Both the position numbers and the translations under genes were made by a program. Shown here piece after piece: positions 6,797-43,279 of a DNA stretch of 43,279 nt (position 1 is the stretch's first letter; the number at the start of each line of letters is the position of its first letter). Under the pieces are notes generated by a model, which was given only the letters and a program-made list of their open reading frames with translations, ran no database searches and had not been told where the DNA came from. Source of the stretch: a bacterium (GTDB lineage: Bacteria; Elusimicrobiota; Elusimicrobia; Elusimicrobiales; UBA9959); NCBI GenBank assembly GCA_021811315.1, contig JAJZPF010000022.1:1-43279 (forward strand), given 5' to 3'.

Positions 6797-7116
6797 GAAT
6801 GTGATCCTTTTACGTAAGCATCAATTGAGGATTATGAACATAAACATATAGCTGAGAATACGCTGCGCCCCATATCTTAACTTTAATATTCTAACAAAAA
6901 GCGCCAACCTGCTTTAGAATGAACGGCGAAGGACGGTAGCGCCAGGATGTCGATGTGTCCTTTGTTAAGTATCTCCCATTATTTTCAAATGAAAATAAAT
7001 ATTTTCATTTGAGCATCTTTCGGGGTAGCCTGAAATTTGGCCGAACCCGCGCGGCCAGGCGGAATGGGGGAGGACGGCAGTCCGATTGACAGCCGCCCCA
7101 GGCCCGGCCGGATAGT
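6797..7116. other. Gene-free stretch with a tandem pair of enhancer-like inverted repeats
   Basis: 320 bp without a credible gene. It holds the start region of the 5972-6796 gene and, at 6981-7016, two ATTTTCA-type inverted repeats (separate entry). No -24/-12 promoter is visible within 150 bp on either side of them. The part next to 7116 is GC-rich and featureless. An overlapping reverse-strand frame running into it is only a shadow of the cysteine-rich gene. Confidence 0.6.
6981..7016. promoter_or_regulatory. Tandem enhancer-like sites (UAS copy 1)
   Basis: A perfect site ATTTTCAAATGAAAAT (6981-6996, 7-bp arms, AA centre, arms extending to 9 bp) is followed by a degraded ATTTTCATTTGAGCAT (7001-7016). 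The centres are exactly 20 bp apart. The same sequence precedes three -24/-12 promoters in this window. This copy is downstream of the cysteine-rich gene and about 570 bp from the divergent sigma-54 promoter pair near 7560-7604, so it would have to act at a distance if it serves them. Confidence 0.55.
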
Positions 7117-7509
7117 TTAATTCTCCCCTGAGCCGCCGCAGGCATTGCAGGTGAAGTAGGCGTCGATAGACCCGCTGCCACCACAAAAACTGCACTCGTT
7201 GCTGCCGGCGCCGCCGCAGGAACCGCAGGTCTGGTTCCCGCTTCCGCCGCAGAGGTTGCAGGTCTGCGCCTCGCCGTGAACGGTCACGCTGCCTCCGCCG
7301 CCGCACTGGCCGCAGGTGTACTCGCCGCGGCCGCTGCAGTTTGAGCAGCGCTGCTGGCCGCCGCTACAGGCGCCGCATTGATGCGACAAGTGGGTTTGCC
7401 CGGTTCCACTGCAGGTTGTGCACTGGCTTCTGGAAAGCGCTTTACTCTGCGCCACCCCGCTGATATTTATGGCGAACACTATAGCGATAATCAATTTGAG
7501 CTTTTTCAT
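7117..7509 (-). CDS. Secreted cysteine-rich protein with eight DnaJ-type CxxCxGxG repeats
   Basis: 130 aa. A signal peptide (MKKLKLIIAIVFAINISGVAQSKA) is followed almost entirely by eight CxxC[SG]Gx[GQ] units, for example CTTCSGTG, CSNCSGRG, CGQCGGGG, CNLCGGSG and CNACGGSG. These match the zinc-binding central region of DnaJ, but there is no J domain and the protein is exported. It may bind zinc or take part in thiol chemistry outside the cytoplasm; neither is shown. AAGGAG precedes the ATG and a -24/-12 promoter lies about 50 bp upstream, so it belongs to the sigma-54 regulon of the lanthipeptide locus. Confidence 0.85.
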   Translation of the reverse strand: MKKLKLIIAIVFAINISGVAQSKALSRSQCTTCSGTGQTHLSHQCGACSGGQQRCSNCSGRGEYTCGQCGGGGSVTVHGEAQTCNLCGGSGNQTCGSCGGAGSNECSFCGGSGSIDAYFTCNACGGSGEN

Positions 7510-7557
7510 AATTCTCCTTAAGTTCTTTCAGCTGCAGAATGTGTTGTGAGCTCTGCG

Positions 7558-7575
7558 GAGCAATTGTTATGCCAA
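7558..7575 (-). promoter_or_regulatory. Sigma-54 (-24/-12) promoter for the cysteine-rich gene
   Basis: Read on the minus strand: TTTGGCATAACAATTGCTC, i.e. GG-N10-GC with GGCAT and TTGC cores nearly identical to the other promoters here. It faces 7509. It is back to back with the plus-strand promoter at 7589-7604, only about 17 bp apart. Confidence 0.8.
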
Positions 7576-7588
7576 AGCCGGTTAAACT

Positions 7589-7610
7589 ATGGCATTAAAA
7601 TTGCTCTGTA
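7589..7610 (+). promoter_or_regulatory. Sigma-54 (-24/-12) promoter for 7646 operon
   Basis: ATGGCATTAAAATTGCTCTG: GG at 7591-7592, N10, GC at 7603-7604. The downstream CTCTGTAG extension is also shared with the promoters at 9379 and 15760, so these promoters share more than the -24/-12 minimum. No ATTTTCA inverted repeat lies about 92 bp upstream; the expected position falls in the start of the opposite gene. Confidence 0.85.
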
Positions 7611-7645
7611 GTCGGTGACGGACTTGTAAAATTTAGGAGGATAAA

Positions 7646-8311
7646 ATGAAAAAGCTGATAATAGTAGTTACCTTACTGGGAATAGCGGCGGCGCAGGTTA
7701 AAGCGCAGGATGTCACTGGGCGGACCGGTCAGGCGGGCGCAACCGACGCAATACACGCCAGGGTTCTGGATGTCGAAGCTCTGTCCTGGGCCTGGCGCAT
7801 AAAGAGAACTAAAGACATGAGCTACCGGGACCTGGAAAAAAAGTCCGCCAACTGGGGGCGCGGCGAAGCTTTGCGCGGTCAGCTTCTAGCTAAGATAAAG
7901 GAAATTATTAATAATGACCAGGTGCGCCGCCTGAACACAAAGGAAGATTCCGCGCTCGATGCCGCTAATGCAGAAGTACGCGCGATCCTTTCAATCAGCC
8001 GCGCCCGCTTAGAAAAGTCCGCCGGTCAGCGCTCGGCGAGGCAGGCCGCGATAGACGGGGCCGCCCGCGAGATGCTGGAGGTCGAGGCGAAGTATTGGGC
8101 CTGGCGCATAGCCGTGGTCCGCAATATCACCTTCGATGAACTTAAGGGTCATTCCGAAGGGTGGATGCGCGGGGCGGAGGTCAGCGATGAACTGCTGGCG
8201 AAAATAAAAATAAAACTCCAGTCCGGCGAGAACCAGCGGCTGAGCGGGGACGAACAGGCAAAGTTCGACGCCGGGAATAAAAAGATAAAACAGCTTCTCT
8301 CCCGCGCGTAA
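7646..8311 (+). CDS. Secreted protein with two internal repeats, function unknown
   Basis: 221 aa with a signal peptide (MKKLIIVVTLLGIAAAQVKAQ). Two homologous helical units follow: about residues 34-115 ('DVEALSWAWRIKRTKDMSY...GEALRGQLLAKIKEII...LNTKED') and 130-221 ('MLEVEAKYWAWRIAVVRNITF...GAEVSDELLAKIKIKL...LSGDEQ'). Conserved features are [SY]WAWRI, a GW or NW pair, LLAKIK and a late acidic turn. I know no family name. AGGAGG precedes the start, and a sigma-54 promoter lies 42 bp upstream. It is probably co-transcribed with the FGE-fold gene 71 bp downstream. Confidence 0.75.
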   Translation: MKKLIIVVTLLGIAAAQVKAQDVTGRTGQAGATDAIHARVLDVEALSWAWRIKRTKDMSYRDLEKKSANWGRGEALRGQLLAKIKEIINNDQVRRLNTKEDSALDAANAEVRAILSISRARLEKSAGQRSARQAAIDGAAREMLEVEAKYWAWRIAVVRNITFDELKGHSEGWMRGAEVSDELLAKIKIKLQSGENQRLSGDEQAKFDAGNKKIKQLLSRA

Positions 8312-8382
8312 CCCAGGGCGCGCGGCAGCCGGGAGACGGCAGCTGCGCAGTTTTCACTAAATGGTATATTGTGAGGATTAAT

Positions 8383-9183
8383 ATGAAACTTCTCTATCTT
8401 ATGCTGCTGCTCGCTTCCCCGGCTCTGGCCGTGGAGGAGGAACACCCGTATTTCTCGCCGGAGGAGGTACAGGCCCTGGAGCCGGAGCGCTGCAAGGGCA
8501 TGGTGGAGATACCGGCCGGTTCTTTCACTTTCGGGGATTCTTATGCCGCCGCCGGCAGGCGTACGCCGCCGGCTTTCAAGCATTTGATAAAGCCTGTCAC
8601 CACAAAAACCATCGGCGCCTTCCTGATGGACAAATGCGAAGTGACCCAATTGCAGCAAGAAGCAGTCTGGCTGATGGGGCGCGGTAAACCCGGCGAGAAG
8701 CTGGACCTGAAGCGACCGAATGGAGATCACCCCATGTTCGGAGCCAGGAAAGAATTCGCGGAGCTGTTCTGCAAGTACCTTGGCAAGCGCCTGCCCACCG
8801 AAGAGGAATGGGAGAAGGCCGCACGCGGCGGAACCTCCACGGTCTATTACTGGGGCGACGACTACAGGGATGCCAATACGTACGAGCAAAGCCCCCGGCA
8901 ATACAATATGTCGGTCCCTACCGGGCCTGTCGCCGAGAAAGCCCCGAACCCGTACGGGCTTTACGACATGCTCGGTAACGTGCCTGAAATGACCTCCGGC
9001 GAGTGCTGGAAAGGCGGCTCGATGATGCTTTATAGTGAATATTATGCTTCTGTCGGGCGCTGCGCTAAGGCGCCGGAGAAGGGCTGGGCGCATAGCTATG
9101 GCTGGCGCTGCGTCCGGGATATAGTTAAGCCTGTAGAGGGCGACGGGAAGCAGAGCCAGGCGCAGGGAGAGGAAGCCCGGTAG
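8383..9183 (+). CDS. Exported FGE-sulfatase-fold (formylglycine-generating enzyme superfamily) protein
   Basis: 266 aa from the ATG at 8383, chosen over the GTG at 8371 because it is 6 nt after GAGG and gives a clean signal peptide (MKLLYLMLLLASPALA). Family landmarks appear in order: MVEIPAGSFTFGD, FLMDKCEVTQLQ, LGKRLPTEEEWEKAARGG, YWGDD, NPYGLYDMLGNVPEM and a late 'SYGWRCVRD'. The catalytic cysteine pair of true FGE is not evident in the usual arrangement, so a binding or structural role is as likely as an oxidase. It closes an operon started by the sigma-54 promoter at 7589 and is followed by a terminator. Confidence 0.85.
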   Translation: MKLLYLMLLLASPALAVEEEHPYFSPEEVQALEPERCKGMVEIPAGSFTFGDSYAAAGRRTPPAFKHLIKPVTTKTIGAFLMDKCEVTQLQQEAVWLMGRGKPGEKLDLKRPNGDHPMFGARKEFAELFCKYLGKRLPTEEEWEKAARGGTSTVYYWGDDYRDANTYEQSPRQYNMSVPTGPVAEKAPNPYGLYDMLGNVPEMTSGECWKGGSMMLYSEYYASVGRCAKAPEKGWAHSYGWRCVRDIVKPVEGDGKQSQAQGEEAR

Positions 9184-9230
9184 CCGAGGCAAAGAACCGC
9201 CCTGGGCGCAGCGGGCTAACTCGAAATAAC

Positions 9231-9260
9231 AAAAAGCGGGCAAGGGGCCCGCTTTTTCTT
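9231..9260 (+). terminator. Terminator after the FGE-fold gene
   Basis: An 11-bp stem, AAAAAGCGGGC (9231-9241) with GCCCGCTTTTT (9247-9257), has a 5-nt loop and runs into TTTTTCTTTT. The enhancer pair of the next unit begins at its last bases. Confidence 0.85.
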
Positions 9261-9293
9261 TTCATTTGATAAGAAATATTTTCAAATGAAAAT
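9258..9293. promoter_or_regulatory. Tandem enhancer-like sites (UAS copy 2) for the lanthipeptide operon
   Basis: A degraded CTTTTCATTTGATAAG (9258-9273) is followed by a perfect ATTTTCAAATGAAAAT (9278-9293); centres 9265.5 and 9285.5 are exactly 20 bp apart. The perfect site is centred 94 bp upstream of the -24 GG at 9379. This is the usual placement for an NtrC-type activator that nucleates as dimers on one DNA face. Confidence 0.7.
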
Positions 9294-9376
9294 GTTTTAG
9301 GGCGGCTTTCTCCCTCTAGACAATGAAATAAACCGGATAATACGTATAAAAGCGGCAGAAAAGGCTTTTTCCGGGG

Positions 9377-9397
9377 TTGGCATAAATATTGCTCTGT
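9377..9397 (+). promoter_or_regulatory. Sigma-54 (-24/-12) promoter of the lanthipeptide operon
   Basis: TTGGCATAAATATTGCTCTG: GG at 9379-9380, N10, GC at 9391-9392. Predicted start of transcription is near 9404, leaving a short leader of about 27 nt with GGAGAA before the first precursor. Confidence 0.9.
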
Positions 9398-9430
9398 ATT
9401 GGGCATACGCGGTAAACAGAGGAGAATAAA

Positions 9431-9541
9431 ATGAACAATATACTCGAACTTCAGAAAATAGAAGCGGCCAACGAAGCGGCGGCCAATAAAGATTGGAGCA
9501 CTTTAAGCATATCGGACTGCCAGAACGGCGGCGGGAACTAA
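9431..9541 (+). CDS. lanA1: Class III lanthipeptide precursor 1
   Basis: 36 aa. The leader starts MNNILELQKIE; ILELQ is the hallmark of class III (LanKC-processed) leaders and is recognised by the synthetase. The core is rich in modifiable residues: WSTLSISDCQNGGGN. Ser23-x2-Ser26-x3-Cys30 matches the SxxSxxxC pattern that class III enzymes turn into labionin (or lanthionine plus dehydroalanine). Only one Cys is present, so one ring is expected. The gene is too short for ordinary gene callers. It is preceded by GGAGAATAAA and is the first of four similar genes spaced 135-136 bp apart. The leader cleavage site is not evident. Confidence 0.9.
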   Translation: MNNILELQKIEAANEAAANKDWSTLSISDCQNGGGN

Positions 9542-9565
9542 GAGCTGAAAATAAGGAGAACTAAA

Positions 9566-9676
9566 ATGAACAACATACTTGAACTTCAGAAACTTGAAAA
9601 CCTTGAGAACGAGAATGCCCAGAAGTCGTTCAGCACCCTGAGCGTGATGGACTGCCAGAACGGCGGCGGGAACTAA
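9566..9676 (+). CDS. lanA2: Class III lanthipeptide precursor 2
   Basis: 36 aa, same plan as precursor 1: MNNILELQKLE leader, a different middle (acidic, Asn-rich, ending AQKSF) and the core STLSVMDCQNGGGN with Ser23, Ser26 and Cys30 conserved. Its coding sequence is identical base for base to precursor 3, so the pair arose by a recent duplication or is held identical by gene conversion. AAGGAGAAC precedes the start. Confidence 0.9.
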   Translation: MNNILELQKLENLENENAQKSFSTLSVMDCQNGGGN

Positions 9677-9701
9677 GAGCAGAAAATTAAGGAGAATTAA
9701 A

Positions 9702-9812
9702 ATGAACAACATACTTGAACTTCAGAAACTTGAAAACCTTGAGAACGAGAATGCCCAGAAGTCGTTCAGCACCCTGAGCGTGATGGACTGCCAGAACGGC
9801 GGCGGGAACTAA
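9702..9812 (+). CDS. lanA3: Class III lanthipeptide precursor 3 (identical to precursor 2)
   Basis: The 36-aa product and all 111 coding bases equal precursor 2. Its upstream spacer is nearly identical to that of precursor 4 (AAGGAGAA[TC]TAAA). Two identical copies would raise the dose of this peptide relative to the variants. Core SxxSxxxC and the QNGGGN tail are conserved. Confidence 0.9.
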   Translation: MNNILELQKLENLENENAQKSFSTLSVMDCQNGGGN

Positions 9813-9837
9813 GAGCAGAAAATTAAGGAGAACTAAA

Positions 9838-9948
9838 ATGAACAATATACTCGAACTTCAGAAAATAGAAGCGGCCTGCGAAGAGTCTGCTAATAAAGAA
9901 TGGAGCACCCTGAGCGTAGCGGGCTGCCAGAACGGCGGCGGAAATTAA
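9838..9948 (+). CDS. lanA4: Class III lanthipeptide precursor 4
   Basis: 36 aa, closest to precursor 1 in leader and codon choice (MNNILELQKIE, then AACEESANKEW), with core STLSVAGCQNGGGN. An extra Cys at residue 14 lies in the leader or far N-terminal core and is unique to this copy; if retained after processing it could give a second thioether or a disulfide. GGAGAAC precedes the start. The next gene follows at 9976 without a terminator. Confidence 0.9.
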   Translation: MNNILELQKIEAACEESANKEWSTLSVAGCQNGGGN

Positions 9949-9975
9949 AAACACGGCTAAGTTAAGGAAATGATC

Positions 9976-10653
9976 ATGAAATGTATATTAAATAGCGGAA
10001 AGCGGAGCGTCATTAAGGCGGTGTTCCTCCTGATCGGCGCTTTAGCGGTGCCCGGCGCCGCTGTCCCACAGCAGGCAACGTTTGATAAAATGAATGTCGG
10101 GGCGGAAGTTAGGAACATAGAAATAGAGACCGCCGGCGAGGTGACCGTCCTCCTTGAAAAGTCGGCGGGCAGTCTCGGCGTGGAAGACCTTAAGTACGAG
10201 CAGGCGGACTTTTATCCCGTTACCGCAACCGTCTCGGGGGATACTATAAAGCTGAAGATAGCCGGGAATAAAACCTGGCTCAGGTCCGGCTCCGGCAAGA
10301 TGCGCGCTTCTTTGCGGCTGCTCCTGCCAGAGGGGAAAAATATCCGGATAAGCGGCGGCTCGCTGAAGATATCCGGGCAGGTCAGCGCCCTGGCCCTCAA
10401 GCTCTCGGCCGGAGTTCTGACGGCAGAGAATATGCAGGCCGAGGTGGGCGGCGCGCTGCGTATAGACGGCGGGGTGGTCAGGCTGGACGCCACTGTAAAT
10501 AACGCGGCGTCCGTAAAAGTTTCCGGCGGCGCCGTTTCCGGCAAGCTTCGCGTGCCCGAGACCGCTAAACTTGATACGGGGCGCAGGAATTCGAAGTTGA
10601 AGGTATATTATATTGCCGGCCAGGGAACCTTACCCGGTAATAAGGGACGCTAA
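9976..10653 (+). CDS. Secreted DUF4097-like beta-repeat protein 1
   Basis: 225 aa from the ATG at 9976, preferred over 9970 because AAGGA then sits 7 nt away. A hydrophobic signal (about residues 13-30) ends near VPGAAVPQQ. The rest is a beta-rich repeat of short strands such as RISGGSLKISGQVSAL, ALKLSAGVLTAENM, ALRIDGGVVRL and SVKVSGGAVSGKLRV, as in DUF4097/head-domain-of-trimeric-adhesin-like proteins. It lies between precursors and synthetase in the same operon and has a homologous neighbour. The role is unknown; an envelope component that binds or protects against the peptide is one guess. Confidence 0.75.
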   Translation: MKCILNSGKRSVIKAVFLLIGALAVPGAAVPQQATFDKMNVGAEVRNIEIETAGEVTVLLEKSAGSLGVEDLKYEQADFYPVTATVSGDTIKLKIAGNKTWLRSGSGKMRASLRLLLPEGKNIRISGGSLKISGQVSALALKLSAGVLTAENMQAEVGGALRIDGGVVRLDATVNNAASVKVSGGAVSGKLRVPETAKLDTGRRNSKLKVYYIAGQGTLPGNKGR

Positions 10654-10654
10654 T

Positions 10655-11305
10655 ATGAAAAAAACATCTAAAAAAAAGCCGGCTTTTTTAATAATCTTCG
10701 CCCTTGTTTCAGTCCTAAACCTGAACTGCCGGGCCGCCTCGGCTGAGGAAGCCGCGGGAATGCAGAAGATCCAGGTCCCGGCTGATGTCACCGAGATCTC
10801 GGTGGAGCTGGAGAACGATACCGATGTGACGCTTGTGAAAACGCCGGATATCCTTAATATCGAGTCCCTTAAATATGAGGGAGCGCAGGGAAATCCCGTT
10901 ACGGTGGAGAGGAAGGGAAATAAAATAACCCTGAGCGTCAAAGGCGGCAGGAAATGGTGGAAATTTAAAGTAGGGACTCTTGTGGCCAGCTTCCGCCTGC
11001 TGGTTCCCGAGGGCCGGTCCGTAAAAATATCGGGAGGCAAACTAAAGCTGTCCGGAGAGCTGGCGGGGACCGATCTCCGGGTGAACGCGGGAAACCTGAC
11101 CATGGCCGGGCTTTCCTTGTCCGCCTCAAACGAGATAAAAGTCGCCGCGGGCCATACCGAAATGGATATGACGGTCCTTAAGGCTAAAAAATTCAGTCTT
11201 AGCGCCGGGCATGTATCCGGCAAGGTCAGGATGCCTGAATCTGTGGAATACAAGAATTCTTCGGGCAGCAACGATCTTAAAGTAATGCTGCTTGAAGGGA
11301 AATAA
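10655..11305 (+). CDS. Secreted DUF4097-like beta-repeat protein 2
   Basis: 216 aa from the ATG at 10655, just after the stop of its paralog; a longer frame from 10613 lacks a ribosome site and would mask the signal peptide. The basic MKKTSKKK start and hydrophobic FLIIFALVSVLNL are followed by the same repeat plan as the preceding protein: SVKISGGKLKLSGELAG, DLRVNAGNLTMAGL, EIKVAAGHTEMDM, KFSLSAGHVSGKVRMPESV. The duplication and shared gene order point to a joint role, for example as a pair of envelope proteins, but nothing shows what they bind. Confidence 0.75.
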   Translation: MKKTSKKKPAFLIIFALVSVLNLNCRAASAEEAAGMQKIQVPADVTEISVELENDTDVTLVKTPDILNIESLKYEGAQGNPVTVERKGNKITLSVKGGRKWWKFKVGTLVASFRLLVPEGRSVKISGGKLKLSGELAGTDLRVNAGNLTMAGLSLSASNEIKVAAGHTEMDMTVLKAKKFSLSAGHVSGKVRMPESVEYKNSSGSNDLKVMLLEGK

Positions 11306-11329
11306 CTGCCGCGCCGCCTTAAGCAAAAT

Positions 11330-11354
11330 GACACGCTGCCGCCGGCGGCGTGTC
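11330..11354 (+). other. Strong intercistronic hairpin without a T-tract
   Basis: An 11-bp stem (one T-G wobble) with a 3-nt loop runs from GACACGC (11330-11336) to GCGTGTC (11348-11354), in the 69-bp gap before lanKC. No U-run follows, so it is not a standard terminator. It could stabilise the upstream mRNA or slow polymerase and keep peptide mRNA in excess over enzyme mRNA. Confidence 0.55.
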
Positions 11355-11374
11355 GCCGCGTCCGGGGATAAAAA

Positions 11375-14035
11375 ATGCGAAATGACTTCCGCGAGTTCCA
11401 GTACTACCTGATCTCCGACAGGCGGTATTATGAGCCGATGGATTATTACCAGTACAGGCAGGCGGATTTCCTCGCCGCCGCGGACGGGGTCCGGAAGGCC
11501 GGCTGGAACATGTCGCGCAAAGGCGTCTGGCTCGGCTGCTCGCCTGGCGGGAAAACTCTCCCCGTGCAGGGCTGGAAGATACATTTATCCGCGCGGCCCC
11601 AGGATGCGGCAGAGGTCCTGGCCCGCACCTCAGCCCTGCTTATCGCGCGGGGCGCCGCTTTCAAATTCCTGCTGGATAAACACATCCTGACTTTGGCGAA
11701 CTCCAAATCCTGGCCGCGCGGCGCCGCGGGCAAATTCATGACCGTGTACCCCGCGGATGAGGCGGAATTTAAGGCCCTTTTGGAGGAGTTAAGCGCCGCC
11801 ACTTCGGAGTTTTCCGGGCCGTATATCCTGTCCGACAGGCGCTACGGAGAAAGCAAGGTAGTGTTTTATCGCTACGGCGGGATAAGGTTGAACGCAAGGC
11901 TCGAGGTCGGAGGCGATAAGACGCCGGTCCTGGTTTCACCTTCCGGAGAAAAGCTGCCAGATATCCGCACCCCTTATTTCAGCCTCCCCCCGTGGATAGA
12001 AGATCCTTTCCCGGAGAAAAAAGAGCCGGGCGGCGGGCTGAATAAAGGGCGCTATACCGTGCAGCGCTCTTTGGGCTTTTCAAATTCCGGAGGCGTATAT
12101 CTTGGCCTGGATAGTTCTACCGGGCGGAAAATAGTGATAAAAGAAGCCAGGCCGTGGGTAAACGAAACTTCTCCCGGCCAGGATATGATCAAGCTCCTTG
12201 AGAAAGAAAGCCGGCTGCTGGAGAAGCTTAAAAAACACCGTATCTCGCCGGAGCCGGTGGATTTCTTCCGCGAATGGGAGCATTCTTTCCTGGTGCAGGA
12301 ATATCTCGACGGGTATATCCCGCTCTCCACCTGGGCCATGCGCAATACTGTCGTTCTCAGGACCAGGTTCTCAAATGACGACGCGAAAAAGTTTTTCGCT
12401 TCCTATGCAGGGATCTTCAGCCGCCTCGCTTCCCTCCTTGAGAAAGTTCACGGGGAAGGCGTGATCTTCGGCGATTTCTCCGCTAATAATGTCATGGTGC
12501 ACCCGGATTCCCTGGATGTAAAGATCATAGACCTGGAAGCAGCCAGGGACAGCGAAGAGCCCGGCCCCCCGGTATTTATTACCCCCGGCTTTACCGACAA
12601 GGGCAGGGCTTCGGGTAAACACCTCGCTTTCGAGGACGATTATTACGCGTTCGGGGCTAATATGCTCTACGCCCTGGTACGGGTCGGGCATTTTTCAGAA
12701 TTGAAACCGGAAATAGGCTCTTTGTGGCTGGATTACCTGATCTCGGAGGCCGGGTTCCCTGCCGGCCTTAAGAAGGCCGTAGATTCTCTTATGCTGCCGG
12801 ACCCGGCTAAGCGGAAAAAGCCGGCGGAGGTCGCGGAAGAATTCCTGAAGTCGGTATCCTCGATGCCTTCCGGTTCCGAGGCTGTCCCCACCCGCGCGGC
12901 GAACTTCGAGCCCGGCAGGTATAAGGACCTATTAACCCAATTGTCGGTTCATTTGTCCTGCGCGGCGGACTATAAACGCAGCGACAGGTTATGGCCTGCT
13001 TCACCGGACGTATTCAGCACGAATCCGCTGAGCGTTTCTCATGGAGCGTCCGGGATCTTAAAAGCCGTTCATGCCTGCGCCCCGGAGAAAATAACCTCTG
13101 AAATGACCGATTGGGTCCTGCGTAAGGAAATAACCCCCGGCGATTATCCTCCCGGGCTTTATTCAGGTATAAGCGGCGTGGCGTGGGTACTGCTGGACCT
13201 CGGGCTGAAGCGTGAGGCCGGTAAAATATTCGAGGCCGCGGCCTCGCACCCGCTGCTTCACGCCTCTCCGGATATGTTCAACGGCCTTGCCGGCTGGGGG
13301 ATGACTAACCTGCGCTTCTGGCTCGATTCCCGCGAGAATAAATACCTTGAGCGGGCTACGGCCGCCGGCAGGAAATTACTGGCCTCGTCCCATAAGGACG
13401 GGGAGGACATCTATTGGAAGCCGCTTTCCGGAGAGAAACGGCCGGTGGGTTTCGCTTTCGGCGCGTCCGGGATCTCTGTTTTCCTGGCTTACTTAAGCCT
13501 GGCGTCGGGAGATGCGGAGTTCGAAAAAGCGGCTAACAGTGCGCTGGCCTCAGATCTTTCGAAGGCCTATCCAACGCCGGAAGGCGGATTAAGCTGGCCC
13601 AGGGATACCTCAGCGGGAAGCCCGCTGCTCCCGTACCTGGAAGCCGGCAGTTCCGGGGTAGGCATGGCTTGTCTGCGCCTCTGGAAGATGTCCGGCGGGC
13701 GGCGGTACTCCGGGATGCTGGAGAAGATATATATAGATTGCGACAGGATCTATTCCGCCTTCCCGGGCAGGAATAACGGTATGGCCGGGATGGGAGAGTT
13801 CCTGCTGGACGCTTACAAGTTCACCAAAGACCCCAAATACAAGCATGCGGCCGGGAAACTCGCGTCGGGCATAGAGAAATTTGCGGTCTCGACCGGAAAT
13901 GGGACAGCTTTTCCCGGGGACGGCCTTTTCAGGCTGAGCTGCGATTACTCCACCGGCTCCGCGGGGGTAATGTCATTCCTGAACAGGCTGGAGACGGGAG
14001 CTGGCGCCGATTTCATGCTGGACGAATTGCTTTAA
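11375..14035 (+). CDS. lanKC: Class III lanthipeptide synthetase LanKC
   Basis: 886 aa, the three-domain size typical of the family. Residues 1-220: lyase region opening FREFQYYLISDRRYYEPMDYY and repeating YILSDRRYG. Residues 226-505: Ser/Thr-kinase-like domain with a G-loop (LGFSNSGGVYLG), Lys in IVIKEA, catalytic GDFSANN and IIDLEAA in place of DFG. Residues 520-886: LanC-like cyclase helices with repeated G-x-x-G (SHGASGI, GLYSGISGVAW, GFAFGASGIS, NNGMAGMGE). The zinc-binding Cys-Cys-His of LanC are absent: CHG is replaced by NNG near residue 800, as expected for class III rather than IV. The enzyme phosphorylates and eliminates Ser/Thr, then adds Cys. Likely substrates are the four upstream precursors. 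Confidence 0.93.
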   Translation: MRNDFREFQYYLISDRRYYEPMDYYQYRQADFLAAADGVRKAGWNMSRKGVWLGCSPGGKTLPVQGWKIHLSARPQDAAEVLARTSALLIARGAAFKFLLDKHILTLANSKSWPRGAAGKFMTVYPADEAEFKALLEELSAATSEFSGPYILSDRRYGESKVVFYRYGGIRLNARLEVGGDKTPVLVSPSGEKLPDIRTPYFSLPPWIEDPFPEKKEPGGGLNKGRYTVQRSLGFSNSGGVYLGLDSSTGRKIVIKEARPWVNETSPGQDMIKLLEKESRLLEKLKKHRISPEPVDFFREWEHSFLVQEYLDGYIPLSTWAMRNTVVLRTRFSNDDAKKFFASYAGIFSRLASLLEKVHGEGVIFGDFSANNVMVHPDSLDVKIIDLEAARDSEEPGPPVFITPGFTDKGRASGKHLAFEDDYYAFGANMLYALVRVGHFSELKPEIGSLWLDYLISEAGFPAGLKKAVDSLMLPDPAKRKKPAEVAEEFLKSVSSMPSGSEAVPTRAANFEPGRYKDLLTQLSVHLSCAADYKRSDRLWPASPDVFSTNPLSVSHGASGILKAVHACAPEKITSEMTDWVLRKEITPGDYPPGLYSGISGVAWVLLDLGLKREAGKIFEAAASHPLLHASPDMFNGLAGWGMTNLRFWLDSRENKYLERATAAGRKLLASSHKDGEDIYWKPLSGEKRPVGFAFGASGISVFLAYLSLASGDAEFEKAANSALASDLSKAYPTPEGGLSWPRDTSAGSPLLPYLEAGSSGVGMACLRLWKMSGGRRYSGMLEKIYIDCDRIYSAFPGRNNGMAGMGEFLLDAYKFTKDPKYKHAAGKLASGIEKFAVSTGNGTAFPGDGLFRLSCDYSTGSAGVMSFLNRLETGAGADFMLDELL

Positions 14036-14047
14036 GAGGTATTTTTG

Positions 14048-15595
14048 ATGCTGAAGAACATGCGGCTTATCATAAAGCCTTACGCGCCCGAGTTCTGGCT
14101 GGCTTTGGGAAGCTATATAGCCGTGAACGCGCTGATGACCCTTCTGAACCCGCTTTTGTTGAAATATATCTTCGATGAGGGCATAATTAAAAAGGATTTC
14201 AGGCTGTTCATCCTGTTCGCCGTGGGTTTTATGGTCCTGGCTACTTCAGCCCGCCTATTCTCTTTGTGGAACACGCTTAAAGTACAGGAGCTTAAGAATA
14301 AAATACTGAAAGGACTGGTGGGAAGTTTGCTGGGTAGCTATTATAAGCTCCCGTACATCCAGGTTGTCAGGAACAACACCGGGTATTACACCTCCAGGAT
14401 CTATGACGAACCGCTTGCGGCCTCCTCCGCTTCCGTGGACCTCTCTTTCTCCGTCTGTTCGGCCGGAGTATCTTTTATCGTCGCTTTCGGGTTGGTCCTC
14501 TTCCTGTCGGTGAAGGCGACCCTGGCCCTGGTGCTGACGGTGCCTTTCCTGATAATGTTTTCCAATAGATACAGGTCAGCCATTAAAAAACATTCCCGGG
14601 AAGAAAAAGAACAGGAGGGTAAACTGCGCGGGGACCTTGCCGGCGCCGCGCAGTCGTACCGGACGGTGAATATTTTTGGCCTTCAGTCCGCGGTATTGTC
14701 GAAAATAAACGAGCAGTTCGATAAATATGTAAGCAGCCTGAACGAACGCGTCAGTAACAGCGCAAAACACAATACTTTCGGAGAGATATTCATGTCTTAC
14801 GGCGAGATGATGGTTATCATCGTCTGCGGCTATGCGATCCTGAAAGGCGAGATGAGCTTCGGCGGTTTCATGGCTTTCATGAACGCGTTCTGGCTTGCCG
14901 TAGGTAATATGCGGACCCTGGTGCAGAAAATACCGGAGCTTTCCAAGAACTCCATCGCCCTGGAGCGGCTGGCCGAGTTCAGCGCGGCGGCCGCGGAAGA
15001 AAGCGCCGCATCAGGGGAAGGCGGCGGTATTACCCTTAAGAGCGTCGGTTTCAGCTATGGGGAGAACAAGGTTTTCTCAAATTTGAGCTTAAGCGTAGGG
15101 AGGGGGGAAAGGCTGCTGTTAAGCGGCAAGAACGGTTCTGGCAAATCCACCGTGGCGAATATCCTTTCCGGCTTTCTGGCCCCGCAAAGCGGGATGGCGG
15201 AAACGCTGGGGATAGCGCGGACCAGCGCCTGCATAACGCCGCACAATTTTATTCCAGGCTCCATTAAAGACAATCTCCGTTATGGAAGTTTGGACCAGGC
15301 GCAAAAAAAATATCTACACGCGCTGCTGGAGGACTTCGCTCTTTCGGAAAGCTTTGAGAAAAGCCCCGATGAGCTTTCCGCCGGCCAGAAGAAGAAGGTC
15401 GAAATAGTGATGGGGCTGATGAAAGACGCCGGGCTTTACGTGTTCGACGAGCCTCTCGCGAATGTGGACGTTGAAAGCAAGAATAAAATAATGGGCCATA
15501 TTTTCGAAAAAGCCAGGAACAGCGGCCTTATAGTAATAATGCACGGCGACGATGAGTTCCGAGGGCAATTCGGGCGCGTGGTGGAGTTGGCTTGA
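14048..15595 (+). CDS. lanT: ABC exporter (fused membrane and ATPase domains) of the lanthipeptide operon
   Basis: 515 aa from the ATG at 14048; a TTG three bases earlier is too close to the GAGG site. Six hydrophobic segments fall in residues 15-290, then the ATPase with Walker A (GKNGSGKST), signature LSAGQKKK, Walker B (LYVFDEP) and the switch His in IMHGD. There is no N-terminal C39 peptidase, so leader removal needs another protease. It is a little shorter than common ABC exporters. It starts 12 bp after lanKC and is the last gene before the terminator at 15652. Export of the mature or leader-bearing peptide is the natural role. Confidence 0.88.
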   Translation: MLKNMRLIIKPYAPEFWLALGSYIAVNALMTLLNPLLLKYIFDEGIIKKDFRLFILFAVGFMVLATSARLFSLWNTLKVQELKNKILKGLVGSLLGSYYKLPYIQVVRNNTGYYTSRIYDEPLAASSASVDLSFSVCSAGVSFIVAFGLVLFLSVKATLALVLTVPFLIMFSNRYRSAIKKHSREEKEQEGKLRGDLAGAAQSYRTVNIFGLQSAVLSKINEQFDKYVSSLNERVSNSAKHNTFGEIFMSYGEMMVIIVCGYAILKGEMSFGGFMAFMNAFWLAVGNMRTLVQKIPELSKNSIALERLAEFSAAAAEESAASGEGGGITLKSVGFSYGENKVFSNLSLSVGRGERLLLSGKNGSGKSTVANILSGFLAPQSGMAETLGIARTSACITPHNFIPGSIKDNLRYGSLDQAQKKYLHALLEDFALSESFEKSPDELSAGQKKKVEIVMGLMKDAGLYVFDEPLANVDVESKNKIMGHIFEKARNSGLIVIMHGDDEFRGQFGRVVELA

Positions 15596-15651
15596 CCTGA
15601 TAAAGCCGGAAAGCAGCCGAAGCGGGCATAAAAGTGCCGGTTTTGTATTAG

Positions 15652-15690
15652 CCGCAAATATTTTCAAATGAAAATGTTTGCGGTTTTTTA
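15652..15690 (+). terminator. Terminator whose stem contains an enhancer site (UAS copy 3)
   Basis: A 15-bp stem with one T-G wobble runs from CCGCAAAT (15652) to GTTTGCGG (15683), followed by TTTTTTATTTT. The inner part of the stem (15660-15675) is exactly the ATTTTCAAATGAAAAT enhancer-like site, centred 93 bp upstream of the -24 GG at 15760. One sequence therefore seems to end the biosynthetic operon as RNA and bind the activator as DNA. Confidence 0.8.
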
Positions 15691-15757
15691 TTTTATCCTT
15701 TCGCCCTGGATAGGGCGGTTATCAGATGAAAAACTGGTAAAACAGTGTTTTTTATAA

Positions 15758-15779
15758 ATGGCATATAAATTGCTCTGTA
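15758..15779 (+). promoter_or_regulatory. Sigma-54 (-24/-12) promoter for 15852
   Basis: AATGGCATATAAATTGCTCTG: GG at 15760-15761, N10, GC at 15772-15773, with the shared CTCTGTAG extension. The enhancer-like site lies 93 bp upstream inside the preceding terminator. Confidence 0.88.
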
Positions 15780-15851
15780 GTGGGTAAGCGGGCCGTTCAG
15801 ACAAAGCGGGGGTAGGGCGGCCCGCCCAATTTAAAGGAAGGATTCAAAGAA

Positions 15852-16424
15852 ATGAAGAATGAAATTAAAGCGGTATGCGGAATGACCCTGGTGATAGCGG
15901 CGGTTCTCTGCGCTGGCAGGGCCGGGGCTGAAATGGCGATAAGCATGGAGCCGGTAGGGTATGCCGCCAAGCCGGCGGTCTGGGGCCAGGCTTCTCGGCC
16001 TTCTTCTGCCGACAGGCTTTCAGAAGCCGCGGAGAGACTTGCCGAAGCCTCCAGCGCTGGCGACAATGCCAAAGCGGAAGCCCTCCTTGCCGGGATCTTT
16101 TCCGGGGCGGAGAGGAAAGAAGAGGCCGCTCCCGTATACGTAGAAAGCAAACCGGCCGCCGCTGCCCCCGCGGTTCCCGCGCCGGTCAAGCGCGTCTCCA
16201 TTGCAAAGGCGGCCGTCGCGGACCTGGAAGAGGCCGCCGGGGATTCCGTGACTGAGGATGAGAACACCGGTAAAGAGGAAGAAGCTGTCGCCAAGGCGGA
16301 CGAAGCGGAAGCCGGCGATTCCGGAGCGTCCGAGGAAGAAGCTAAACCCGCCCCGACTCTTTTCGACACGCTCTTCGGCGGCGGCCTCGGGATGCTCCTG
16401 GTGATCCTGCTGCTCTTGCTGTGA
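15852..16424 (+). CDS. 190-aa Ala/Glu-rich protein with hydrophobic termini, function unknown
   Basis: The N-terminus (MKNEIKAVCGMTLVIAAVLCAGRAGA) is a signal sequence. A long low-complexity middle rich in Ala, Glu and Pro follows, ending in GEGL-like glycines and a terminal hydrophobic run (GMLLVILLLLL). The last residues could be a membrane anchor or a sorting tail. I do not recognise a family. It has its own sigma-54 promoter and enhancer site, so it is part of the lanthipeptide regulon, transcribed as a single gene. GGAAGGA precedes the start. A role in immunity or as an envelope anchor is possible but unsupported. The 3' end is 6 bp from the convergent H-box gene. Confidence 0.65.
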   Translation: MKNEIKAVCGMTLVIAAVLCAGRAGAEMAISMEPVGYAAKPAVWGQASRPSSADRLSEAAERLAEASSAGDNAKAEALLAGIFSGAERKEEAAPVYVESKPAAAAPAVPAPVKRVSIAKAAVADLEEAAGDSVTEDENTGKEEEAVAKADEAEAGDSGASEEEAKPAPTLFDTLFGGGLGMLLVILLLLL

Positions 16425-16430
16425 AGGAGG

Positions 16431-16613
16431 TCAGGCCTTTTCTATCTGGGCAAGCAGTTTAACTATTTCGGCGGCGGCGGCGTTCATCAGGGCCAGCATC
16501 TCTTTCTTCTCGGCCGCCGAGCAGTCTTTGTAAAGTTCGGCCGCGCTTTTCAGGCTGGAGCATTTGGACCGCAAGTCGTGCAGAAGCTTGCTGCTGTCAG
16601 GCGTAGTGGTCAT
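16431..16613 (-). CDS. 60-aa helical H-box protein coupled to the response regulator
   Basis: A small all-helical protein. Residues 10-18 read LLHDLRSKC, close to the histidine kinase H-box (HDLRSPL), and the rest (SSLKSAAELY... LNAAAAEIVKLLAQIEKA) could form a DHp-like two-helix hairpin. No ATPase domain is present. Its ATG overlaps the stop of the sigma-54 activator gene (ATGA), so the two are made together. It may be a stand-alone phosphotransfer or phosphatase-like partner, or a decoy that binds the regulator; His12 would be the residue to test. The alternative is an unrelated small coiled protein. Confidence 0.6.
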   Translation of the reverse strand: MTTTPDSSKLLHDLRSKCSSLKSAAELYKDCSAAEKKEMLALMNAAAAEIVKLLAQIEKA

Positions 16614-17959
16614 TTCTTTTCTCCCTCGGGTTCTATCCCCAGCTTCTTCAGGGTCGAATATAAAAGCCTTGTCGAAATTTTAAGGTCGGCCATGGTCTTT
16701 GTCTTCTTGCCTTCGTTCTCCCGCAGGTTCCTCGTTATTATCTCGCCGGAAATTTTATCCAGCGCCGCTTCCAGGCCGTTCGCCAGGGCGTAAGCGTAAA
16801 GCCCGCCGTCATTGGCCGCGGCGGGCTGAGCGCTCTCGCGCCCTTTAAGATGCTTCGTGACGGTGTTTATATCCACCCGTCCTTCGGAGCCGCTCGAGAC
16901 CAGGTCCACGAACTTCTTGAGCTCGCGCACATTTCCGGACCAGGAGTAAGTCTCCATATAAGCCCTCGCCTCCGGGGTGAAAGACAGTCTCCGGCGGCCG
17001 CTCGTGAAGTGCTGTACCAGCGGGGCTATGTCGCAGGCCCGGCGCGAGAGCGGCTTGAGGTTTATAGTGTAGCCGTGCACGCGCTGGAAAAGGTCGAAGC
17101 GCATTTTGCCCTGGGCGATCAGAGTCTGCGGGTCTTCTAGCGTCGCGCTTATGATGCGGAACTCCGAATGCTCCGGCTTTTCAGAGCCGAGCGGGTAGAA
17201 AGAGCGCTCCTCTATGGCCTTCAGCAGCTTCATCTGCATTCCAAGGCTCATCGTTCCTATCTCGTCGAGGAAAAGCGTTCCTTTATGCGCTTCCAGGAGC
17301 CGGCCTTTGCGGGTTTCATGAGCCCCGGTGAAAGCGCCTTTTTTATGGCCGAACATTTCGGCCTCGAGCAGGTCCTCGGTATAAGCCGAGCAGTTTATCG
17401 AGACGAAAGCGCCTTCGCGGCCGGAGTGTTCATGCAGTATCTTGGCCAGCGAGGTTTTCCCGGTGCCCGAAGGCCCGAGTATAAGGATCGGCAGCTCGGT
17501 AGGCGCGTATTTCAGGGCCTCGGAAGCGGCGGCTTTGGTTTCCGGGTCGCAGGTGATGAAAGCCGAGGAGAAAATATCTTTTGCGCCGGCGGCTTTCCTG
17601 TTCTGTATGAATTTGCGCAGGATGTCGGCCACATTCGATTCTTCATTCCCTTTCGCGTAAAAATCATTTGCGCCGAGCGCGTAGGCCCGGTCGATAGTTT
17701 CGTCCGAGTCGGAGCTCGATACCACGACGCAGAAGACGCCTCTCGCCGCCGCGGCGGCTATAGCTTTAAGCCCGGAATAATCGTCGTCCGGCCCGAGCAT
17801 AAGGTCGAAGAAGCCGATATCGTATTTTGCGCTCTCGATCTTCTTCAGGGCTGTTTTAAGGTCCCCGGCCAGGTCGATATTATGCCCGGCCAGGTGCGCG
17901 GACATGACCTTCTGCGCAAGCTTGTCGTCTTCCAATACAAGTATATTGAGTTTTTCCAT
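16610..17959 (-). CDS. NtrC-type sigma-54-dependent response regulator
   Basis: 449 aa. Receiver domain: acidic pair D11-D12, phospho-acceptor D52 (FFDLML), Ser82, Lys103 (YAKG). AAA+ domain: Walker A GPSGTGKT (162-169), the sigma-54-contacting GAFTGA loop (208-213), Walker B GTLFLDEIG (227-235) and the WSGNVREL sensor region. A C-terminal Fis-like helix-turn-helix (TKTMADLKISTRLLYSTLKKLGI) binds DNA. It is the natural activator of the -24/-12 promoters here and the candidate binder of the ATTTTCA inverted repeat, one copy of which lies in its own 5' leader. The kinase partner is not adjacent; the hybrid kinase at 3436-5118 is one candidate. Confidence 0.95.
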   Translation of the reverse strand: MEKLNILVLEDDKLAQKVMSAHLAGHNIDLAGDLKTALKKIESAKYDIGFFDLMLGPDDDYSGLKAIAAAAARGVFCVVVSSSDSDETIDRAYALGANDFYAKGNEESNVADILRKFIQNRKAAGAKDIFSSAFITCDPETKAAASEALKYAPTELPILILGPSGTGKTSLAKILHEHSGREGAFVSINCSAYTEDLLEAEMFGHKKGAFTGAHETRKGRLLEAHKGTLFLDEIGTMSLGMQMKLLKAIEERSFYPLGSEKPEHSEFRIISATLEDPQTLIAQGKMRFDLFQRVHGYTINLKPLSRRACDIAPLVQHFTSGRRRLSFTPEARAYMETYSWSGNVRELKKFVDLVSSGSEGRVDINTVTKHLKGRESAQPAAANDGGLYAYALANGLEAALDKISGEIITRNLRENEGKKTKTMADLKISTRLLYSTLKKLGIEPEGEKK

Positions 17960-17962
17960 AAT

Positions 17963-17998
17963 GTTCTCACCCGAGAAGAAATATTTTCAAATGAAAAT
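17963..17998. promoter_or_regulatory. Tandem enhancer-like sites (UAS copy 4) between activator and sigma-54 genes
   Basis: A perfect ATTTTCAAATGAAAAT (17983-17998) has a second inverted repeat, TTCTC-ACCC-GAGAA (17964-17977), centred exactly 20 bp to its left. The perfect site is centred 91 bp upstream of the sigma-54 gene's -24 GG. It also lies in the leader of the divergent activator gene, downstream of its -10 box, where binding would block that transcript. Confidence 0.7.
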
Positions 17999-18016
17999 AT
18001 TTTGCCCCTCAATTTG

Positions 18017-18022
18017 ATTATA
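18017..18022 (-). promoter_or_regulatory. -10 box (TATAAT) of the activator gene
   Basis: On the minus strand TGTATAATC gives a perfect -10 hexamer about 60 bp before the ATG at 17959. No good -35 is visible. Start of transcription is expected near 18010, upstream of the enhancer-like pair. Confidence 0.5.
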
Positions 18023-18078
18023 CAGAAATTAACCGGCGCGCCGCCATATAGCGGGCTGCCGGGCGCGATCTCCTGAAT

Positions 18079-18099
18079 ATGGCATAAAAATTGTTCTGA
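18079..18099 (+). promoter_or_regulatory. Sigma-54-type promoter of the sigma-54 paralog itself
   Basis: TATGGCATAAAAATTGTTCTG: GG at 18081-18082, N10, then GT (18093-18094) instead of GC. The -12 element deviates from the other four promoters, so it may be weaker or favour a different sigma-54. Predicted start of transcription near 18105 excludes the in-frame ATG at 18101 as a start codon. Confidence 0.75.
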
Positions 18100-18139
18100 G
18101 ATGGAATTAATGGCTATAATATGCGACAGGAGATTATCT

Positions 18140-19195
18140 ATGAAACCTCACGGCTTTAAATTCACCGCTTCAACTGGGGCAAAAGCTTCAACAGCCCTCA
18201 TGGGCGCGCTTAAGATGGCGCATATGGCCGGGATGAGCGAGGAAGAGTTCGAAAAATACCTCAAAGAAATGGAGGGCGGCCGGGTTTTCCAGCTGCTTAA
18301 GGCCTCCGGGGTGATAAACCTGGCCGAGTTCCCCGCCGCACGCTACGCGGCGCGCCAGTACGCGGGTTACGGCCTCAAGCTTTCCGGCGGGGATCTCCCG
18401 GAGCTTGCCGACGGGGCCGGCGACCTGGTGGCGCTTATACAGGGAGTTGGGCAGGAAAAATTCGAAGCCTGTTTTCTTAAAGACGCCGTGATGAGCGATA
18501 TAGAGCGCGCCGAAGAATGCGATATTACCGTGAAAGACGCGGAGCGCCTGCGCGATTTCGTGAACAAGGCTTTCATACAGGCCGAGTTCGAGGGGGCGGT
18601 GGAAGCTCCGGCCGCGAAAGTGTTCAGCGCGGTGGCCGGCATCGAGGTCAAGGACGGCGAGCCGCTGCTGGGTTTCTTCCACCGCGAGATCTGGAAAGGC
18701 CGCTATAAAGTGGATTCCGACAAACTGGCGCAGCTCCTGCCGGGCCTCGAGCCCGCCGAGCGGAACCGCGTGGAAAAAATGCTCCGCAAAGTTGAATTCG
18801 CCGACAAGCGCAAGACCACGCTTTACCGCACGCTCGAGATCCTGATCAGCGTGCAGGCGGAGTACCTTACCACCGGCGAGCCAGGCCGGCGCCGCCCGCT
18901 TTCGCAGAAAACCCTGGCCAAGAATCTCGAGGTGGACGCAAGCGTTATCAACCGGCTCGTTTCAAACAAATCGATACAAATGCCCTGGGGCATGGAAGCG
19001 CCGATCAGCGTGCTTCTGCCGACTTCCAAAGCGGTGAACCTGGAGCGCCTTTACTCCATAGCCGCCGAGAAGCCGGAACTGAGCGATGAAAAGCTCCGCG
19101 TCGAATTGAAAACCCGCCACGGCGTGGAACTCTCCCGCCGCTCGGTGGCCCAATACCGCAAAGATCTGAGCCTCGCGGCTTCCGGGGCGCGCTAA
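18140..19195 (+). CDS. Short, divergent sigma-54 (RpoN-family) factor
   Basis: 351 aa from the ATG at 18140, which has AGGAG 8 nt upstream; RpoN proteins are usually about 450-500 aa. The N-terminus (KMAHMAGMSEEEFEKYLKEM) resembles a reduced Region I but lacks its Gln-rich character. The C-terminal third is clear: LEILISVQAEYLTTG, then the HTH region (QKTLAKNLEVDASVINRLVSN) followed by IQMPWG, and at 332-340 SRRSVAQYR, a variant of the RpoN box ARRTVAKYR. The loss is mostly in the Region II/core-binding part. Preceded by its own -24/-12 promoter and divergent from a GAFTGA activator, it looks like a dedicated sigma factor for this locus, autoregulated. Confidence 0.88.
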   Translation: MKPHGFKFTASTGAKASTALMGALKMAHMAGMSEEEFEKYLKEMEGGRVFQLLKASGVINLAEFPAARYAARQYAGYGLKLSGGDLPELADGAGDLVALIQGVGQEKFEACFLKDAVMSDIERAEECDITVKDAERLRDFVNKAFIQAEFEGAVEAPAAKVFSAVAGIEVKDGEPLLGFFHREIWKGRYKVDSDKLAQLLPGLEPAERNRVEKMLRKVEFADKRKTTLYRTLEILISVQAEYLTTGEPGRRRPLSQKTLAKNLEVDASVINRLVSNKSIQMPWGMEAPISVLLPTSKAVNLERLYSIAAEKPELSDEKLRVELKTRHGVELSRRSVAQYRKDLSLAASGAR

Positions 19196-19212
19196 AAAAA
19201 AGGCGAAAACAG

Positions 19213-19244
19213 AACCGCCGGGAAAGCCCGGCGGTTTTGTTTTA
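19213..19244. terminator. Terminator after the sigma-54 paralog
   Basis: A 10-bp perfect stem, AACCGCCGGG (19213-19222) with CCCGGCGGTT (19227-19236), has loop AAAG and tail TTGTTTTATT. It sits between convergent genes. Confidence 0.9.

Positions 19245-42886: not shown

Positions 42887-43279
<393 letters not shown>

Follow-up and report, generated by a model that had tools for sequence, protein, structure and literature searches.

The 43,279-nucleotide contig JAJZPF010000022.1 (assembly GCA_021811315.1; Elusimicrobiota, Elusimicrobiales, UBA9959), analysed over its whole length and called the window here, encodes a compact sigma-54 paralog (RpoN-A), a sigma-54-activating response regulator (RR) and a 60-residue protein (DHp60) beside a predicted class III lanthipeptide operon with the synthetase LanKC. 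We think it likely that this group of genes is a lineage-specific, self-reinforcing sigma-54 switch for an exchangeable exported arsenal. The lanthipeptide operon appears to be an accessory of a lineage-wide regulon, since RpoN-A is kept without LanKC, units of the same promoter and upstream site lie on four other contigs of the genome, and relatives carry radical-SAM cassettes instead. All of the evidence is sequence comparison on metagenome-assembled genomes; the window is contig C7 of a 48-contig genome (2.67 Mb, 63% complete), and it was compared with 69 fetched RpoN-A loci (70 with the window), a phylum set of 340 genomes and a family set of 59.

The promoter pattern TGGCATNNNNNTTGYTCYG occurs exactly five times in the window, at 7556 on the minus strand and at 7590, 9378, 15759 and 18080 on the plus strand, against a mean of 0.02 expected from dinucleotide shuffles with up to one mismatch, and so bears out the five near-identical -24/-12 promoters of a preliminary description made from the letters of this DNA. 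The spacing is 5 in every one of them, and the promoter at 7556 ends in TCCG instead of TCTG. The palindrome ATTTTCAAATGAAAAT, a candidate upstream activating sequence (UAS), has exact copies at 6981, 9278, 15660 and 17983; with up to two mismatches there are 10 strand-matches in the window against 0.03 expected, including one at 2043 that is unrelated in place. Three of the exact copies stand 97-100 bp upstream of a promoter. The fourth, at 6981, is followed by a degenerate second copy at 7001-7016 and lies about 560-610 bp from the divergent promoters 7556 and 7590, an arrangement repeated in the relative L065.

Table 1. Predicted features of the regulatory and lanthipeptide region, in window coordinates
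Feature	Position	Strand	Basis or remark
UAS palindrome ATTTTCAAATGAAAAT, distal to divergent promoter pair	6981..6996	.	
Cys/Gly-repeat protein, signal peptide, 130 aa, behind promoter 7556(-)	7117..7509	-	
-24/-12 promoter TGGCATAACAATTGCTCCG	7556..7574	-	pattern match
-24/-12 promoter TGGCATTAAAATTGCTCTG	7590..7608	+	pattern match
Secreted protein sec221, 221 aa	7646..8311	+	no domain above cut-off
FGE-sulfatase (SUMF1-like) domain protein, signal peptide	8371..9183	+	PF03781 5.9e-34
UAS palindrome, lanthipeptide operon	9278..9293	.	pattern match
-24/-12 promoter TGGCATAAATATTGCTCTG, lanthipeptide operon	9378..9396	+	pattern match
Precursor 1, MNNILELQ leader, core STLSISDC (S-x2-S-x3-C)	9431..9541	+	
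Precursor 2, core STLSVMDC	9566..9676	+	
Precursor 3, peptide identical to precursor 2 (tandem duplicate)	9702..9812	+	
Precursor 4, core STLSVAGC	9838..9948	+	
DUF4097-like secreted protein a	9970..10653	+	no Pfam match; LiaG weak, E 0.005
DUF4097-like secreted protein b	10655..11305	+	PF13349 1.1e-4, slightly below cut-off
Class III LanKC, lyase + kinase + cyclase domains	11375..14035	+	RamC_N, Pkinase, LANC_like
ABC exporter, membrane + ATPase domains fused	14048..15595	+	Pfam
Intrinsic terminator-like hairpin, stem holds UAS 15660-15675	15650..15685	+	
-24/-12 promoter TGGCATATAAATTGCTCTG	15759..15777	+	pattern match
Secreted/anchored protein sec190	15852..16424	+	
DHp60, 60 aa, two-helix hairpin, invariant His12	16431..16613	-	
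RR, receiver + AAA+ with GAFTGA	16610..17959	-	
UAS between RR and rpoN genes; also between RR-facing TATAAT and RR start	17983..17998	.	
RR-facing TATAAT, -10 like	18017..18022	-	
-24/-12 promoter TGGCATAAAAATTGTTCTG of rpoN	18080..18098	+	pattern match
Sigma-70-like TATAAT, 18 nt after TTGTTC of -12 box	18115..18120	+	hybrid promoter
RpoN-A, compact sigma-54, 351 aa	18140..19195	+	

RpoN-A is recognised by its DNA-binding domain (Sigma54_DBD PF04552, 1.1e-16, above the cut-off) and by an RpoN box in which SRRSVAQYRK aligns with ARRTVAKYRE; its predicted fold aligns with sigma-54 chains over residues 15-351, and 32 columns are invariant among 40 sequences. The reading frame opens at 18101, and the start that has a ribosome site is 18140. 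The 59 loci found with RpoN-A in named genomes belong to Elusimicrobia, Elusimicrobiota or Elusimicrobiales (50), to entries named only "bacterium" (6), to Aminicenantes (1) and, distantly, to Clostridium (2). The RR matches Sigma54_activat (PF00158) at 2.9e-55 and has its GAFTGA at residue 208. LanKC (738.3 bits against its family model), the precursors, the exporter, the GAFTGA regulator and the short RpoN of 351 residues are thus all present together, as the preliminary description had it; not in it were the 60-residue reading frame, the sigma-70-like elements near rpoN and the promoters that lie beyond the window.

The gene for DHp60 and the end of the RR gene share 4 bp. The predicted structure of its product has helices at residues 5-28 and 33-59 (pLDDT 89), with His12 in all 30 aligned sequences (29 of 40 matches plus the window); among the 11 matches left out of that alignment are a second copy (L243:5044-5172) that is truncated and has Arg where the His would be, three fragments (L282, L286, L288) whose chosen start falls past the His, and another second copy (L246:3226-3429) that has diverged. 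Searches with DHp60 gave no Pfam match, a weak match to ChpT (17.8 bits, E 0.0017, family cut-off 225 bits) and, in Foldseek, a best E of 0.4, with DHp domains amid mixed generic helical hairpins; hhalign placed His12 on the His of a kinase encoded on contig C25 without significance (E 0.14, probability 0.4%). Spo0B is a histidine phosphotransferase grouped with ChpT. DHp60 shares with this type the weak ChpT match and an invariant His in helix 1, and it differs in having 60 residues and no ATPase-like domain. From sequence and predicted fold, it resembles a histidine kinase reduced to its helical hairpin, with the ATPase missing, and we class it as working like a histidine phosphotransferase, not as a family member.

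When the fetched loci were scored by tblastn with the window proteins, RpoN-A was accompanied by the RR in 47 of 69, by DHp60 in 41 and by LanKC in 2 (L079 and L082; 3 of 70 with the window), counts that are lower bounds because 24 of the 69 loci are shorter than 10 kb. RpoN-A, the RR and DHp60 by these comparisons form a conserved module, mostly without LanKC. A second RpoN-A/RR pair in the genome G149 sits on a 3.4-kb contig (C3, L069) with a coverage of 1.5 against 9.3, and may be contamination from a related strain. In four loci (L085, L089, L094, L095), a Gly/Phe-rich small reading frame of 31-33 codons lies between the promoter and rpoN-A, possibly a leader peptide or signal.

The module had been described as a lanthipeptide locus with its own sigma-54, that is, a private circuit in which sigma-54 and RR belong to, and evolved for, the lanthipeptide cluster. 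The tight co-location in the window, L079 and L082 speaks for this; but LanKC accompanies the RpoN-A module so seldom, UAS-promoter units stand on four other contigs of the same genome, and the closest relative holds a radical-SAM cassette in the same slot. A private lanthipeptide circuit was rejected on this distribution of the module and its UAS-promoter units, and we regard it as very improbable: the regulon extends elsewhere, and the description has the ownership the wrong way round. What survives of the dedicated circuit is a sigma-54 with a likely activator, enhancer-like sites, promoters of its own kind and a second rpoN in the genome; privacy to the lanthipeptide does not. LanKC with RamC_N at E <1e-50 was found in 4 of 340 genomes, and each of the four also has RpoN-A, with a UAS promoter ahead of the precursors; in one of them (G159, L188) LanKC is on a 5.7-kb contig with no rpoN in view. 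RamC_N passed the Pfam cut-off in 15 of 340 genomes; in the other 11 the match is weak (E 1e-7 to 1e-17), and most of these matches fall within very long reading frames. RamC_N-like matches above the Pfam cut-off in frames of about 1,100-13,760 residues, unlike LanKC in size, were seen in G173, G174, G175, G296, G305, G309, G311, G313 and G317 (L138-L146, L152-L157).

In the window's own genome, further UAS-promoter pairs lie on contigs C45 (two), C14, C26 and C3. The C14 and C3 pairs stand before small secreted proteins and the C26 pair before an operon for an ABC transporter; of the two on C45, one precedes a reading frame of no clear function and the other a riboswitch leader. The leader is a 2dG-II riboswitch (Rfam RF03165, 86 bits, L029:158-228, minus strand) followed by a terminator-like hairpin. 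On these two features a sigma-54-driven small RNA at C45:325(-) was rejected; more likely, as judged from the sequence, it is the riboswitch leader of a gene past the contig end. Across the phylum, the strict UAS-promoter pattern was found at 54 places in 24 of 340 genomes, with none in the reversed control; a looser pattern matched in 30 of 59 family genomes (control 0), among which the matches in G114 and G115 resemble, by eye, one shared coding stretch. Within the family, the strict pair is present in 21 of 31 genomes with RpoN-A versus 3 of 28 without it.

Several findings weigh against a switch that works through RpoN-A, the RR and the UAS. Pfam finds neither an activator-interacting nor a core-binding domain in RpoN-A, which scores 63.6 bits against the general rpoN model TIGR02395 (cut-off 277). 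The RR was unseen in 22 and DHp60 in 28 of the 69 loci. The enhancer sites of the preliminary description are upheld by the four exact palindromes, but promoters 7556 and 7590 have no near UAS and a distant copy only. The strict pair is missing in 10 of the 31 RpoN-A genomes of the family and in all 28 RpoN-A genomes of the four other families, so that the UAS is not universal for the module: either the site differs there or the link fails. Of the three family genomes that have the strict pair without RpoN-A, G132 and G138 (84% and 81% complete) keep the promoters with neither RR nor RpoN-A found; in G116, the RR and a single strict pair occur with no Sigma54_DBD match.

The genome holds a second rpoN (RpoN-B; C25:5107-6156, minus strand), likewise short at 349 residues, so the objection that RpoN-A is the only, general sigma-54 falls away. 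RpoN-B adjoins a PAS/HisKA/HATPase kinase and a sigma-54-activating RR, and it might itself read the -24/-12 promoters, with RpoN-A as a modulator or decaying paralog; the diverged N-terminal half of RpoN-A would fit, as would G132 and G138, where the promoters persist beside one Sigma54_DBD gene each. Yet the promoter set tracks RpoN-A within the family, RpoN-A itself is conserved with its RpoN box kept, and it sits behind its own copy of the promoter. We consider such a role for RpoN-B unlikely; RpoN-A, on this pattern of occurrence, is the likely reader.

The genes behind the promoters were surveyed in a census of 89 promoters, 29 before rpoN-A and 60 elsewhere (62 others when the two window promoters without a near UAS are added), in which orthologous promoters are not independent of each other. 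Peptide cassettes, by our own classification, follow 18 of the 60 UAS-bearing non-rpoN promoters, a share that does not equal a genome-wide rate because loci were chosen for rpoN-A or a pattern match, with the UAS 50-150 bp upstream and up to two mismatches allowed. They are of the LanKC type in the window, L079, L082 and L188, and of the radical-SAM type in L065, L066 (two), L077, L094, L201, L210, L213, L215 (two), L218 and L222, where the calls for L077 and L213 come from motif and similarity only. L202 has two tandem UAS-promoter units, each with the same 24-residue peptide MKEFEIIEEANAPELGWGIGGGVF and a hairpin-like repeat, and no maturase within the 1,150 bases fetched. Radical_SAM was above the Pfam cut-off in all nine cassette proteins tested; among the best 25 NCBIfam models per protein, the named families stayed below cut-off for all nine, and three passed the general SPASM domain model. 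These cassettes resemble those of the Clo7bot, geopeptide and CefB models in pairing a short peptide with a maturase and often a transporter; they differ in maturases that fall below those cut-offs and in having a promoter type in common with the lanthipeptide operon. Several cassettes include a DUF4097-like gene: the L066 copy scores above the Pfam cut-off, those of the window, L077, L082 and L094 match weakly, and none was found in the cassette of L079.

The swap of cassettes is clearest in G149 (STB_10), the closest relative, whose RpoN-A is 95% identical to that of the window. Its neighbours are those of the window (Cys/Gly protein, sec221, FGE, sec190, DHp60, RR and rpoN). Between FGE and sec190, however, LanKC gives way to a radical-SAM/SPASM protein, accompanied by two Cys-containing peptides, a weak DUF4097-like match, and an ABC ATPase with its permease. 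By this comparison of gene order, the slot is conserved and its cargo variable. Export is the other common trait: the first reading frames of at least 60 codons behind non-rpoN promoters are signal-peptide-like in 34 of 38 cases versus 135 of 451 background frames, as called by a home-made heuristic, not SignalP. Many secreted proteins of the regulon (L032, L076, L083, L193, L194, L197, L198, L205, L206, L207, L209, L212) begin with a signal peptide and a V-x-F-D-G-like motif such as VDFDGR. Beyond it their sequences diverge, which would fit a shared tag for export or targeting in front of variable proteins. Pfam searches on ten regulon secreted proteins gave none above the cut-off and one sub-threshold match.

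The intergenic region between RR and rpoN is where the proposed circuit would close on itself. In 12 aligned gaps (the window and 11 relatives; mean column identity 35%), a recognisable UAS, the RR-facing TATAAT and the -24/-12 promoter are kept. Of the 29 regions upstream of rpoN-A, 28 contain ATTATA[CG], versus 1 of 62 others; in 22 of 29 rpoN-A promoters a TATAAT with at most one mismatch (exact in 21) stands 16-19 nt after TTGYTC, again versus 1 of 62, and the rpoN promoter of L096 lacks both sigma-70-like elements. Because TATAAT follows TTGYTC in most of them, rpoN-A likely has a basal sigma-70 start that overlaps its sigma-54 start. The UAS centre is also phased helically to the promoter (R 0.53 at 11 bp and 0.48 at 10.5 bp, 57 non-rpoN promoters; p 2e-4 against jitter). 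Some other regulator might bind the palindrome, with the RR acting elsewhere, since RR and UAS are linked by position only; against this, the UAS recurs between RR and rpoN in the window and its 11 aligned relatives, the phasing fits an activator, and one strict pair accompanies the RR in G116, where no rpoN was detected. We hold a different binding protein to be improbable. The hybrid rpoN promoter, the conserved gap elements and the phasing, taken together, fit an activator that acts through looping and a sigma factor that is under positive feedback and has a basal supply.

We propose that a housekeeping-type promoter would make the RR and DHp60, and that a separate one would supply basal RpoN-A. 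The RR would be phosphorylated by some kinase, with DHp60 a likely partner in the transfer or removal of phosphate; the phosphorylated RR would bind the UAS about 60-125 bp upstream of the -24/-12 element and open the RpoN-A polymerase. As rpoN-A would itself be a target, the loop would feed back positively, and the UAS in the RR leader may damp RR synthesis. The other targets would be secreted proteins and exchangeable cassettes for ribosomally synthesised and post-translationally modified peptides (RiPPs), a class III lanthipeptide here and radical-SAM products in relatives.

The lanthipeptide operon itself starts with the promoter at 9378 and comprises four precursor genes, two DUF4097-like genes, LanKC and the ABC exporter, which ends at 15595. 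LanKC scores 738.3 bits against the class III model NF038151 (cut-off 575) and 579.8 bits against the class IV model, below its cut-off of 650; a search of its cyclase found no CHG motif, a zinc-ligand motif that class III cyclases are not known to carry. All four precursors have the Ser-x2-Ser-x3-Cys core and a hydrophobic box in the leader, and we take the S-x2-S-x3-C core and the ILELQ leader to be class III (labionin-type) motifs. Read in this way, the relatives L079, L082 and L188 have cores of S-x2-S-x2-C. The locus thus encodes, by family models and motifs, a class III LanKC with four labionin-type precursors and a predicted product. Known class III clusters, of the labyrinthopeptin/SapB type, are built on LanKC. 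This operon resembles them in a LanKC above the family cut-off, its cores, the ILELQ leader motif and the ABC exporter, in which Pfam matched no C39 peptidase; it departs from them in its UAS and sigma-54-type promoter, four short precursors, DUF4097-like genes within the operon and its place in Elusimicrobiota. A terminator-like hairpin at 15650-15685 lies at the operon's end, its stem formed by the UAS palindrome at 15660, so that one sequence may be both terminator and enhancer of the next gene. Relatives of that gene, sec190, were found by tblastn in 6 of the 69 fetched loci, and a 16S rRNA gene (42887-43279), cut by the contig end, closes the window.

Control of natural-product genes by sigma-54 is already known. 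In Myxococcus xanthus, sigma-54 and Nla28 control polyketide and non-ribosomal peptide genes (Ma et al. 2021, PMC7910581), and the likeness lies in a sigma-54 promoter and an RR-type activator on natural-product genes; in the part of that paper available to us, most promoters are inside genes and no sigma-54 paralog is mentioned. The Elusimicrobiota system differs in a dedicated-looking sigma-54 paralog, promoters in the gaps before genes, a palindromic UAS, and RiPPs and secreted proteins as targets. The accessible parts of two further papers report putative sigma-54 promoters in the majority of 180 polyketide and non-ribosomal peptide synthase clusters (PMC3665592) and, in a survey of gene clusters, sigma-54 domains in 2% of the RRs (PMC10663231). 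Sigma-54 has also been presented as a controller of the bacterial exterior (Francke et al. 2011, PMC3162934), with which the mostly predicted export of the targets here agrees; that account, as far as its available text goes, concerns envelope building blocks and mentions neither "bacteriocin" nor "lantibiotic". Among the matches listed in the open literature, subscription papers not being covered, there was no paper on a dedicated sigma-54 paralog for RiPPs and none on lanthipeptides in Elusimicrobiota.

Taken further, the system would be a closed chassis for interchangeable peptide weapons or signals, in which a dedicated compact sigma-54, its own activator and a kinase-less 60-residue phosphotransfer protein make up a bistable, self-amplifying switch, and RiPP cassettes, whether lanthionine or radical-SAM, join by landing behind a UAS and a TGGCAT-N5-TTGCTCTG promoter. 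We put this forward tentatively, as somewhat less than an even chance; if true, DHp60 would rank with the smallest phosphotransfer proteins of two-component systems, and whether a protein with only the DHp part stands in for a complete kinase is a testable question in any case. The rpoN promoter, in which one box may be both the -12 of sigma-54 and the -35 of sigma-70, would be a compact design, and RpoN-A offers a case of a sigma factor paralog that looks dedicated to an exported arsenal. For this uncultured phylum, the UAS and the extended -24/-12 element may serve as a sequence handle on peptide natural products of several chemistries, without the need for known maturases.

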